Below, piece after piece: positions 34,473 to 38,050 of a stretch of 64,000 nt of DNA (position 1 is its first letter; every line of letters starts with the position of its first letter). The stretch comes from Chthonomonas sp. GTDB taxonomy: Bacteria; Armatimonadota; Fimbriimonadia; Fimbriimonadales; Fimbriimonadaceae. Location: assembly GCA_016788585.1 (NCBI GenBank), contig JAEURP010000003.1, forward strand, positions 1-64,000, written 5' to 3'. Made by a program: the position numbers and the translations under genes. The notes beneath the pieces are model-generated. The model did not search any database, was not told the DNA's origin, and worked only from the letters and a program-made list of their open reading frames with translations.

Positions 34473-34836
34473 ACTGGTCCTGGCTGCTCGCGCGTCAAGA
34501 ACGCGAGCCTATGCCCCTTACAGCAACTATGCGGTGGGAGCTGCCGTTCTCGGATCTGATGGTGAAATCTACAAGGGGTGCAATGTGGAGAACGCAAGTT
34601 TCGGCCTAACCATCTGCGCTGAGCGAAACGCCATTGCGGCCATGGTCGCCGCGGGTTGCACTTCGGCGCGGGCTGTGGTTGTTGTAACGAGCGACGCTGG
34701 AACGCCTTGTGGCGCTTGCCGACAAGTGCTCGCCGAGTTCTCTGGACCCAATGCGCCAGTCGTGTGCATAGGCGAAGGTTCTGAACAACACTTCACTGTC
34801 GGTGAACTGCTACCATCATCTTTCAAATTCCAATGA
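34438..34836 (+). CDS. cdd: Cytidine deaminase
   Basis: 132 residues. It converts cytidine or deoxycytidine to uridine forms. CAERNAI supplies the zinc Cys and the catalytic Glu, and PCGACRQ the other two zinc Cys; YAPYSNYAVGAA is the usual N-terminal block. GTG start at 34438 overlaps mutS2 by 35 bases. The 3' end overlaps the next ATG by 4 bases. Confidence 0.93.
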   Translation: MVRERQLQNFDELVLAARASRTRAYAPYSNYAVGAAVLGSDGEIYKGCNVENASFGLTICAERNAIAAMVAAGCTSARAVVVVTSDAGTPCGACRQVLAEFSGPNAPVVCIGEGSEQHFTVGELLPSSFKFQ

Positions 34837-35327
34837 AATCGCGAAACCTCATTCCTTGGCTCATCCTGCCTTTGACCTATGTCGCCCTATTCGGCTGTGG
34901 TGGGGGCGGAGGTGGTGGTGGGGGCGGAGGTGGTGGGGGCTGCTTAGCTGACACCAGCGATATTGGCGACGGCACCGGAACGATCGTTCAAGGCGTCGTT
35001 CGCGATCAAAACCTTACTAACGTTCCCAACGCCCAAGTCGAGTTCTACACTTCTGGCGGAACCCTCATCAAGCGGGCACGAACTTCGTGCACCGGGCAGT
35101 ACGCAGTGCAGTTGACCAGCGTTCCTGCGCGCGTGTCAGTTCAGTCGTCATCGCTAACCGGCTACTATCGAATGTTCAGCTACCAGGGAGATTGGTTCAC
35201 CTTGGCATCCGATTGTCGCGCGCCGCTAACGGGTATCAACATTGGAGGCACGACAAACTTGCCCGCCATCTATGTGATGTCGCAATCCAGCCCGCCACCG
35301 CCGCCGCCGACGGGCTGCTTGTTGTAA
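34833..35327 (+). CDS. Lipoprotein with polyglycine tract and Ig-like domain
   Basis: 164 residues. The signal peptide ends at a lipobox (ALFGC) and the Cys is followed directly by 14 Gly, then a second Cys. A carboxypeptidase-regulatory-like beta-sandwich follows (GTIVQGVVRDQNLTNVPNAQVEFY), and near the end a run of six Pro before TGCLL. The glycine run probably acts as a flexible tether from the membrane. Function unknown. Confidence 0.7.
   Translation: MKSRNLIPWLILPLTYVALFGCGGGGGGGGGGGGGGCLADTSDIGDGTGTIVQGVVRDQNLTNVPNAQVEFYTSGGTLIKRARTSCTGQYAVQLTSVPARVSVQSSSLTGYYRMFSYQGDWFTLASDCRAPLTGINIGGTTNLPAIYVMSQSSPPPPPPTGCLL
34899..34940 (+). repeat. 18-bp tandem repeat encoding polyglycine
   Basis: Two perfect copies of GGTGGGGGCGGAGGTGGT are followed by GGGGGC, all in frame. 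Slippage would change the glycine run in steps of six residues without breaking the reading frame. Confidence 0.85.
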
Positions 35328-35341
35328 CGATTCTTGCTGTT

Positions 35342-36604
35342 CTAAGCGGCCCTGGCTTGGCCTTCTTCGCCAAACATCCCTTCGGCTTCCGAGAGGAGTT
35401 GGGACGAGGTCTTGGCTTGCCCATCGACATAGGCGTAACCGGCGACCACGGCAACCGCGCCAGATGGAACTCTGCGCTGAAGTAGCCACGGGGCAAACTT
35501 CGCCTGAAGTCTCGCTGTCACGACTGCTGCGGTTGCACCGGTAGATGGAAGGATGATGCCAAATCCATCTGGCCCGTAGCAGCAGGTCACATCCAGTCGA
35601 CGAATGTTCTCTTTGCAGAACTCGGCTGCATCGGCCATAAAGTCAGACACGCAAGCCCCACCGTAGTAACCCTTCAGCGATTCCAAGTTTTCAAACTTGA
35701 TGAGTACGATGCTCATCGGCGAACGCTCGGCATTGGCCCGGTGCACCTCTTCTTCCAGCCGCGCCAAGAAGTAGTCCTGGCTGTACAGACCCGTCACGGA
35801 GTCGAGCACCTCGGGCTCAAGATTCTCTTGCGCCTTCTTGAGCACTCGATCGCTGACATCTTCGTTGGTCAGAATTCGGCGCAACTTGCCCAAGGACTGG
35901 CGAAGAATATGGCTGACGTAATTGCATGAAATACTAAGGCGATTGGCGATTTCCGTTTGGCTGAGGCTCTCGAAGTGGAATGCCATCAGGACCTCTCGCT
36001 CAAGGTCACGTAATTGACCCATTGCGCTTTCCAGCAATAGCCGCTCTTCAACACCGAGGCTTTCGGTCGTGTATGCCGGCATGTTGTCGATCTCACTGCT
36101 CTCGTCATCGCCGGGCAGAACATTGTCGAACGAACTCACCTTTAGCAGGTCAGCAGTAGCCTGGACTTCGTCGATCGACGATTCGCTGACGCCAATGTCG
36201 CGAGCAATCTCGGCATTTGTTGGCACTCTACCGAGTTCCGACTGTAGTCGAGTTGCGGCCTTGGACGCTTTGTGGCGAAGTTCCTGCAGCCACGCGGGGT
36301 GACGAATCACTTGTGACTTGTCTCGAAGGTGGTGCTTAATCTCACCAGCGATCAAGTGCGTGGCATAAGTGTTGAACCGAACGCCCGACTCAGGATCAAA
36401 GCGCTTGATCGCGTTCAATAGCCCGATGTAACCCACCTGCACCAGGTCTTCGAAAGTCTCGATGCCGGCGAATCGGCGTGCGACTCTCTCAACAGTTGGC
36501 CCAAATTGGACCAAGATCATATCCTTCAGTTCGGGGCGTGGATTGGCGAAATATCGCTGCACCAACATCTCCGGGTCTGTAATTGCCTTTTGTAGTTCTC
36601 CCAT
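35342..36604 (-). CDS. Sigma factor (SigB/SigF type) fused to degenerate GGDEF domain
   Basis: 420 residues from the ATG at 36604, which has GGAG nine bases before it; an upstream frame to 36706 lacks this. Region 2 (about 54-106, DLVQVGYIGLLNAIKRFDP and the FNTYATHLIAGEIKHHLRD motif), region 3 (about 107-180) and region 4 (203-243, SLSQTEIANRLSISCNYVSHI) form a complete SigB/F/G-like sigma. Residues about 265-400 are a GGDEF fold: DSVTGLYSQ, and GPDGF (344-348) for GGDEF. The metal-binding Asp is Lys or missing, but R335-x-x-D338 sits exactly five residues before the signature, as the c-di-GMP I-site does. Not recognised as a known architecture. Confidence 0.88.
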   Translation of the reverse strand: MGELQKAITDPEMLVQRYFANPRPELKDMILVQFGPTVERVARRFAGIETFEDLVQVGYIGLLNAIKRFDPESGVRFNTYATHLIAGEIKHHLRDKSQVIRHPAWLQELRHKASKAATRLQSELGRVPTNAEIARDIGVSESSIDEVQATADLLKVSSFDNVLPGDDESSEIDNMPAYTTESLGVEERLLLESAMGQLRDLEREVLMAFHFESLSQTEIANRLSISCNYVSHILRQSLGKLRRILTNEDVSDRVLKKAQENLEPEVLDSVTGLYSQDYFLARLEEEVHRANAERSPMSIVLIKFENLESLKGYYGGACVSDFMADAAEFCKENIRRLDVTCCYGPDGFGIILPSTGATAAVVTARLQAKFAPWLLQRRVPSGAVAVVAGYAYVDGQAKTSSQLLSEAEGMFGEEGQARAA

Positions 36605-36713: not shown

Positions 36714-37916
36714 CTATTTAATTTCGTTGACGATCGTGAAGATCGGGCTCATGACTGAGATGGCGATGAAGCCAACAATCACACCCATGAAGATGATCAG
36801 CATCGGCTCGATCATCGAGGTGAGACCCTTCACGGTTTGGGCCACTTCTTCGTCGTAGAAGTCGCCAATCTTGACTAGCATTTCGCTGAGGCGACCCGAC
36901 TCTTCGCCGATGTCGATCATTTGCGTGACCATCTGTGGGAAGAGGCCGCTCGCCGAAAGCGGAGCGCTCAGTCGATTTCCTTCGCGAATGCTGAGGCGTG
37001 TGTTATCGACGGCCAGCGTGAGCACCGAATTGTTCAATGTCTCGCCGACAATCTCCAAACTGCGCATCATTGGCACGCCTGAATTGATCAATGTGCCAAA
37101 GGTGCGCGTAAATCGTGCCACCGACATCTTGAGCACGAGATCACCGATGATCGGGAATCGCAACTTCATGAAGTCGATGTTGTAACGGCCCTTCTCAGAT
37201 CGCCCGTACCACTTGAATCCGGCGAACAGCGAAGCCCAAAAGAGCAATTGCATCCACCAAGTGGCAGCCATGAAGTCGCCGAAATTGAACAAGGTGTTCG
37301 TGAGGGGCGGAAGCTTGGCATCCATATCGGTGAAGATCTCTTTGAACTTCGGAAGGACGAAACTGAACAAAACGAAGAGCATGAGGACGCTGAAGCACAG
37401 CACCATCACCGGGTACATCATTGCGCCCTTGATCTTGCCGCGAACTTCCATTTCGTACTCAAGGAATCCGCTAAGTCGGTCAAGGATGATGTCCAAAATA
37501 CCGCCCAATTCGGCCGCTCGAACCATGTTAATGTAGAGCTTGCTGAATACGTGCGGGTGCTTGACTAGGGCCTCATTGAGTGCCGATCCTCCCTTGACAT
37601 CCAACGTGATGGCCTCAATCGCCACCTTGAGGACGGGGTCCTTGCAACTGCTGCCTAAGATTTCAAGGCAACGAAGCATTGGGATACCGGCATCAATCAT
37701 CGTGGCGAATTGGCGCGAGAACACAACCAAGGCCTTCGGCTTCATCTTGCCCTTGCTGCGAATGCCTGCCTTTGGGCCCTTCGCTTCAACAACGTCAAGC
37801 ACATGAAGTCCCCCCTCTCGAAGGCGATTGATCAAGGCCTGCTGGTTTTCGGCCTCGACGATTGACTTGACGGTCCTACCGCCAGCGTCCATTGCAGTGT
37901 ATTGAAAATGCGGCAT
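36714..37916 (-). CDS. Type IV pilus / type II secretion inner-membrane protein (PilC/GspF)
   Basis: 400 residues. The ATG at 37916 (GGCAGG before it, then MPHFQYTAMDAGGRTV) is chosen over the frame start at 38000. Two T2SSF domains (about 65-190 and 270-390) each have the conserved FSRQFATMIDAGIPMLRCLEIL and FTRTFGTLINSGVPMMRSLEIV segments, with helices around 165-225 and 370-395. It is the platform protein of a pilus or pseudopilus. No other pilus gene is in the window. Confidence 0.92.
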   Translation of the reverse strand: MPHFQYTAMDAGGRTVKSIVEAENQQALINRLREGGLHVLDVVEAKGPKAGIRSKGKMKPKALVVFSRQFATMIDAGIPMLRCLEILGSSCKDPVLKVAIEAITLDVKGGSALNEALVKHPHVFSKLYINMVRAAELGGILDIILDRLSGFLEYEMEVRGKIKGAMMYPVMVLCFSVLMLFVLFSFVLPKFKEIFTDMDAKLPPLTNTLFNFGDFMAATWWMQLLFWASLFAGFKWYGRSEKGRYNIDFMKLRFPIIGDLVLKMSVARFTRTFGTLINSGVPMMRSLEIVGETLNNSVLTLAVDNTRLSIREGNRLSAPLSASGLFPQMVTQMIDIGEESGRLSEMLVKIGDFYDEEVAQTVKGLTSMIEPMLIIFMGVIVGFIAISVMSPIFTIVNEIK

Positions 37917-38050
37917 CCTGCCTCTTGAACCTCCATAGGATCCGAAAATCCCATTCTCAAAAAGGAGTGTTGGCATAAACGGCACTTCATGCAGGGCCAT
38001 TTTTTGGCTATCTCAGGTTCCCAGGAACGCCGCATTCAAGTTGATTGTTA

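Follow-up and report, generated by a model that had tools for sequence, protein, structure and literature searches.

The window, by which we mean the whole 64,000-nt stretch of DNA analysed here, encodes a sigma factor fused to a degenerate GGDEF domain. We favor the reading, at a probability of about 0.6, that this protein is a one-piece, c-di-GMP-responsive and proteolytically controlled sigma factor linked to the type IV pilus machinery of the Armatimonadota. The architecture, the loss of catalysis, the retention of the I- and I′-site residues, the selection for a C-terminal Ala-Ala (-AA), the linkage to a pil operon and the co-absence with it were established from sequence comparison. The -AA terminus, the pil operon and the phylum-wide conservation had no part in the original prediction.

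Gene and Domain Architecture

The original prediction placed the gene correctly, and its strand is minus; the plus strand over the same interval was full of stops. A longer start at a TTG codon (36706) is possible, and most orthologues used a start near the ATG at 36604. All four domains (sigma-70 regions 2, 3, and 4 and GGDEF) lay on a single uninterrupted protein with scores above the Pfam cut-offs (Table 1). The three sigma regions assigned the protein to the sigma-70 family, and the Pfam match together with the GGDEF fold assigned its C-terminal half to the GGDEF domain (PF00990). The recognition helix in region 4 was SCNYVSHILRQSLGKLR, which was mostly invariant among the orthologues. Convergent with the fusion gene, the window carried a small predicted lipoprotein-like ORF (34833–35327, plus strand) in which 14 consecutive glycines follow the signal peptide.

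Table 1. Coordinates of the sigma-pseudoGGDEF fusion gene, its features and the upstream gene in the window.
Feature	Position	Strand	Details and evidence
pilC (type IV pilus/T2SS platform protein, T2SSF)	36714..37913	-	PF00482, 201.6 bits
Sigma-pseudoGGDEF fusion gene	35342..36604	-	420 aa; ATG at 36604, stop ends at 35342
Sigma-70 region 2	36314..36508	-	residues 33–97; Pfam PF04542, 59.6 bits
Sigma-70 region 3	36152..36283	-	residues 108–151; Pfam PF04539, 35.3 bits
Sigma-70 region 4	35879..36025	-	residues 194–242; Pfam PF04545, 39.5 bits
Long continuous helix, sigma region 4 to GGDEF	35828..35926	-	residues 227–259; predicted, AlphaFold2 model
Degenerate GGDEF domain	35375..35806	-	residues 267–410; Pfam PF00990, 64.0 bits (cut-off 23.8)
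R289, PleD R313 equivalent (I′ site)	35738..35740	-	82/83 in the family; alignment spacing
K303-F304-E305, replacing the metal-binding DxD	35690..35698	-	alignment of orthologues
RxxD primary I-site, R335-R-L-D338	35591..35602	-	R and D each 83/83; aligned with PleD R359/D362
Degenerate signature GPDGF	35561..35575	-	residues 344–348; orthologue alignment
R365, PleD R390 equivalent, third primary I-site residue	35510..35512	-	79/83
C-terminal Ala-Ala (A419, A420), candidate ClpXP-type degron	35345..35350	-	74/83 orthologues

The sigma half had been described as a complete sigma factor of the SigB/SigF type. Its completeness was confirmed by regions 2, 3, and 4, and the type held only in part: SigBFG (TIGR02980) was the best NCBIfam match (171.2 bits), below the curated cut-off of 234.35 for membership. 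The second match was PRK07408 (SigF, 150.5 bits), which we take to be the cyanobacterial SigF model, and SigB came third (137.2 bits). The score against FliA_WhiG (TIGR02479) was 107.6 bits, also below the cut-off (189.6). By these profile scores, the sigma half is a diverged relative of SigBFG without formal membership, i.e., a group-3 sigma factor between SigB/F and the WhiG/FliA clade. A separate WhiG-like sigma factor, which passed the FliA/WhiG cut-off with 225 bits, was encoded in the genome of the window.

The AlphaFold2 model, computed from a 47-row alignment, had an overall pLDDT of 84 and contained the sigma domains, the GGDEF fold and the long helix running from region 4 into the GGDEF domain; its pTM was 0.44, which makes the relative placement of GGDEF and sigma unreliable. 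With this one model, Foldseek returned sigma structures (including SigB and WhiG) as well as GGDEF structures (SiaD, WspR, and PleD). The claim of a GGDEF fold was thereby upheld, and neither Pfam, HMM alignment nor Foldseek gave a better alignment to another fold.

Distribution in the Armatimonadota

The gene belongs to the genome of a Fimbriimonadaceae bacterium in the phylum Armatimonadota, and a protein of 86% identity was found in named Fimbriimonadaceae MAGs. A full-length orthologue was detected in 58 of the 61 genomes of the order, counting one (G003) that was cut by a contig end; the three negatives were incomplete assemblies. Each of the 47 order-level orthologues scanned with Pfam contained regions 2, 3, and 4 and the GGDEF domain (47/47). 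With the profile built from 47 orthologues, most of the phylum's families yielded full-length matches, and its tally of 284/291 does not equal 284 fusions, as many genomes match weakly via sigma paralogues. Some nearly complete Armatimonadota genomes lacked the fusion. Orthologues across most genomes of the phylum led us to reject both a chimera or assembly artefact and a one-off fusion. Outside the phylum, none was found in 72,556 plasmid records when a place covering 80% of the query was demanded, and a scan of genome contigs with exact peptide patterns returned near relatives only.

Lost Catalysis and Retained I-Site

Residue counts were taken over 83 distinct orthologues. None of them had the motif GG(D/E)EF: a variety of residues stood at its second glycine, and the E/D pair was scattered. 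Where all 34 active GGDEFs of the order have the metal-binding Asp, the orthologues had Arg, Glu, Gln, Lys, or other residues, and the active-site Asn and Asp that bind guanine were not conserved. The GPDGF signature and the Lys/Phe-Glu in the DxD segment had both been read correctly in the original prediction, and they stand where an active diguanylate cyclase has GG(D/E)EF and the metal-binding Asp. Its expectation of no cyclase activity agreed with the absence of the catalytic residues from every orthologue, by which the fusion GGDEF is judged catalytically dead throughout the family; the reading as an active cyclase was rejected on the same ground. In the window's own genome, an active-type GGDEF protein with N-terminal CBS-like repeats (L320, 2693–3565) had GESD in place of RxxD and probably has no I-site.

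The HMM alignment with PleD matched R335, D338, and R365 to R359, D362, and R390, and R289 corresponded to R313 by spacing. In PleD, R359, D362, and R390 of one GGDEF domain and R313 of its neighbour bind c-di-GMP dimers (PMC7288161). The R335-x-x-D338 motif did lie five residues ahead of the signature as predicted, at the position of PleD R359/D362. Poor conservation of RxxD, named beforehand as a sign against the prediction, was not seen, as R335 and D338 were both retained in 83/83 orthologues, along with R289 (82/83) and R365 (79/83). RxxD by itself was insufficient evidence for a receptor: in related genomes the majority of active GGDEFs carry it (30 of 33 GGDEF/GGEEF-type matches). R365 and R289 were therefore brought into the comparison, and the telling point is retention without catalysis. 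An Arg at the position of R289 occurred in two of 32 active GGDEFs from related genomes of the order vs. 82 of 83 fusions. The I/I′ residues were kept and the catalytic ones lost, which suggested that a receptor, and probably also its dimer-forming half-site, has been selected and an enzyme has not. The domain had the sequence features of degenerate GGDEF receptors of the PopA/PelD type, namely lost catalysis with RxxD and an accessory I-site Arg kept, and by its conserved residues it is quite likely to bind c-di-GMP. An LPSTG string at the strand of P353 (LPHTG in relatives) was regarded as part of the GGDEF fold and rejected as a sortase signal.

C-Terminal Ala-Ala Tail

The protein ended with Ala-Ala in 74 of the 83 orthologues vs. 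eight of 420 further long ORFs from these loci (Fisher p about 1e-68, with rows that are not independent). Pairwise identity was 0.82 and 0.88 at the last two positions and 0.06–0.12, i.e., near random, at the 12 preceding ones. A conserved -AA after a near-random tail is what a degron would be expected to show, and the comparison indicated that this dipeptide is under selection. The key recognition element of ClpXP is Ala-Ala-COO− (PMC7652416), and CtrA was stabilised once its C-terminal alanines were changed to aspartates (PMC4433202). The fusion has such a terminus in its predicted protein, ClpX was encoded in the window's genome, and the tmRNA tag of this genome was ANNNFAYAA, which ends in -YAA. 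Degradation by ClpXP via -AA is thus probable, as judged from the tail.

The tail did not follow the other features in every lineage. The deepest lineages retained the Arg and Asp of RxxD and had no -AA; two divergent orthologues, in G030 (L048) and G032 (L047, from a 1.5-Mb genome), had neither -AA nor an adjoining pilC; and several other lineages kept -AA with the adjacent pilC missing. The WhiG/FliA-like sigma factor ended with -SAA in the window's own genome (L310, 402–1202) and with -VA in relatives (L313, L315, L316, L317, and L318), so degron-like tails may be common on the alternative sigma factors of this lineage.

Type IV Pilus Gene Neighbourhood and Promoter Box

The upstream gene of the fusion's operon was pilC (Table 1), for which an alternative start at 38000 would add 29 residues. 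Among 102 orthologous loci, a number that includes duplicates, pilC was the immediate upstream neighbour in the same orientation in 77 by a strict rule and in seven more with an overlapping stop-to-stop frame. Six deeper lineages had the operon order secretin (pilQ)-PilB (MshEN)-PilT-PilC-sigma, with the sigma gene last. Within one genus, pilC and the fusion were present together in eight species and absent together in eight (16/16). The eight fusion-positive genomes all had the same pilC at 63–68% identity and also carried a pilC paralogue. The fusion-negative ones (G128, G129, G130, G137, G139, G141, G142, and G144 of genus g20) were nearly complete, lacked the fusion and its pilC, and kept only this paralogue of roughly 40% identity. 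This indicated that pilC and the fusion were acquired or lost jointly.

Among type IV pilus proteins, MshE is known to be a receptor for c-di-GMP (PMC8325347; PMC10333796). In one family (G040, G044, G048, and G050 of f5; L149, 6199–7077), an active-type GGDEF gene was divergently oriented beside the pilC-sigma operon. This gene, four GGDEF proteins besides the fusion and four MshEN domains point to c-di-GMP being in use. Pilus or surface genes are, somewhat more probably than not, the main targets of the fusion sigma.

In Fimbriimonadales, a box CCGANNAT (best form T(G/T)CCGACAAT) was located 10–80 nt upstream of the pilC start in 35 of 44 distinct upstream regions vs. 0.77 in shuffles. It resembled the flagellar/WhiG (FliA-like) -10 box GCCGATAA, and in Rubrobacter radiotolerans a GCCGATAA -10 box is reported to precede type IV pilus genes under a c-di-GMP-controlled WhiG (PMC8325347). 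The window's own genus had no good match to the pilC box; the TAACAAT form upstream of pilC is our guess at a promoter there. The TGCCGACAAT box also preceded genes reading as motA and flgK (L242 and L271; G011 and G033), so a WhiG/FliA-type sigma factor probably reads the same box. The sequence TKCCGACAAT occurred 74 times vs. 12 in the control, about six-fold, in six genomes, with many sites inside genes. Given the intragenic sites and the motA/flgK sites, this regulon could not be assigned to the fusion sigma rather than to the WhiG-like one. Prepilin genes (PF07963) were too numerous for a clean comparison of targets. Given the WhiG-like sigma and the WhiG/FliA-like -10 box before pilC, the operon may not depend on the fusion for its transcription; the fusion may transcribe it, or it may act below WhiG in a cascade.

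Proposed Mechanism and Alternative Explanations

Here, we propose that intercalated c-di-GMP dimers would bind R335, D338, and R365 of one protomer and R289 of another, and that the GGDEF domains would thus cross-link two fusion molecules, in the manner of PleD or WspR. The dimer state would be passed along the rigid helix from sigma region 4 and would change RNA polymerase entry, c-di-GMP turning the sigma factor off. This negative direction is a guess made by analogy with RsiG-WhiG, and we hold it tentatively, at rather less than even odds. ClpXP would remove the fusion via its C-terminal Ala-Ala, so that activity and amount could both be set without a separate anti-sigma factor. Taken in full, as a phylum-wide switch on a single polypeptide in which c-di-GMP cross-links the sigma factor, RNA polymerase access and ClpXP turnover are both controlled, and pilus/surface transcription is regulated with no anti-sigma factor, the scheme is plausible at a little short of an even chance.

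The output might instead lie in stability: the ligand would expose or hide -AA and set the amount of sigma factor, with RNA polymerase binding not directly affected. Within the tail, only the C-terminal dipeptide is conserved. PopA of Caulobacter, a degenerate GGDEF protein that has RxxD, takes part in CtrA degradation (PMC10333796), and the change of alanine to aspartate at the C-terminus that stabilised CtrA (PMC4433202) fits as well. However, the long helix between region 4 and GGDEF in the structure model suggests direct coupling, and the deep lineages have the RxxD Arg and Asp yet no -AA. We consider stability as the only output unlikely.

It is also unlikely, to a slightly greater degree, that the GGDEF fold is only a module for dimerisation or protein binding, for example to an anti-sigma factor or a pilus protein, with the arginines serving this partner and not c-di-GMP. 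Degenerate GGDEF scaffolds such as FimX are known (PMC7288161) and the loss of the catalytic residues would suit such a role, but it is precisely the four I/I′ residues that are kept, among them the R289 that is rare at this position in active GGDEFs. A nucleotide other than c-di-GMP (GTP, ppGpp, or a further cyclic dinucleotide) might be sensed at the I-site or at the former active site, and CC3396, a degenerate GGDEF protein that is a GTP sensor, is a precedent (cited in PMC7288161). The active-site Asn and Asp for guanine binding were, however, not conserved, for which reason the GTP sensor was rejected, and nucleotide sensing of this kind is very improbable. The one-piece c-di-GMP-responsive sigma factor remains our preferred reading.

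Comparison With Known Systems

Degenerate GGDEF receptors, a c-di-GMP-controlled sigma factor, sigma control of pili and domains fused to ECF sigma factors are each known singly; a protein that combines them was not found in the open-licence full texts. The architecture was new to the author of the original prediction, and a full-text search of open-licence papers gave no published description of it. The Fimbriimonas genome paper does not mention a sigma-GGDEF fusion.

PopA and PelD are similar in that catalysis is lost and RxxD kept, and PopA acts in the regulated proteolysis of CtrA, whereas neither has a sigma factor joined to its degenerate GGDEF domain. We know of no GGDEF domain in cyanobacterial SigF. 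That protein is likewise a group-3 sigma factor controlling type IV pili (Synechocystis; PMC2758279), but it has its own promoter boxes, TAGGC/GGTAA. ECF41 and ECF56 also have a C-terminal domain fused to sigma (PMC3426412; PMC7730460); these are SnoaL-like extensions on two-domain ECF sigma factors, in contrast to a receptor-type GGDEF on a three-domain group-3 sigma. CtrA and the ssrA-tagged proteins, which are ClpXP substrates, share the C-terminal Ala-Ala with the fusion, a protein known from sequence alone. The fusion combines a candidate receptor domain and a candidate C-terminal degron on one sigma factor.

The closest parallel is RsiG-WhiG, described in 2021 as the one sigma/anti-sigma pair then known to be a target of c-di-GMP (PMC8325347). 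Both systems involve a group-3 sigma factor, under c-di-GMP control in RsiG-WhiG, and type IV pili in R. radiotolerans, and the WhiG promoter has a GCCGATAA -10 box similar to the one before pilC here. The c-di-GMP receptor of RsiG-WhiG is a separate coiled-coil anti-sigma factor, unlike the fused GGDEF domain; among the genes neighbouring pilC and the fusion, no RsiG was recognised. The fusion is conserved across a phylum whose gene regulation has hardly been studied by experiment, with a link to pili as in Rubrobacter and the cyanobacteria. If our reading is true, a sigma factor with a built-in receptor would be another solution beside RsiG-WhiG, and a simpler one.
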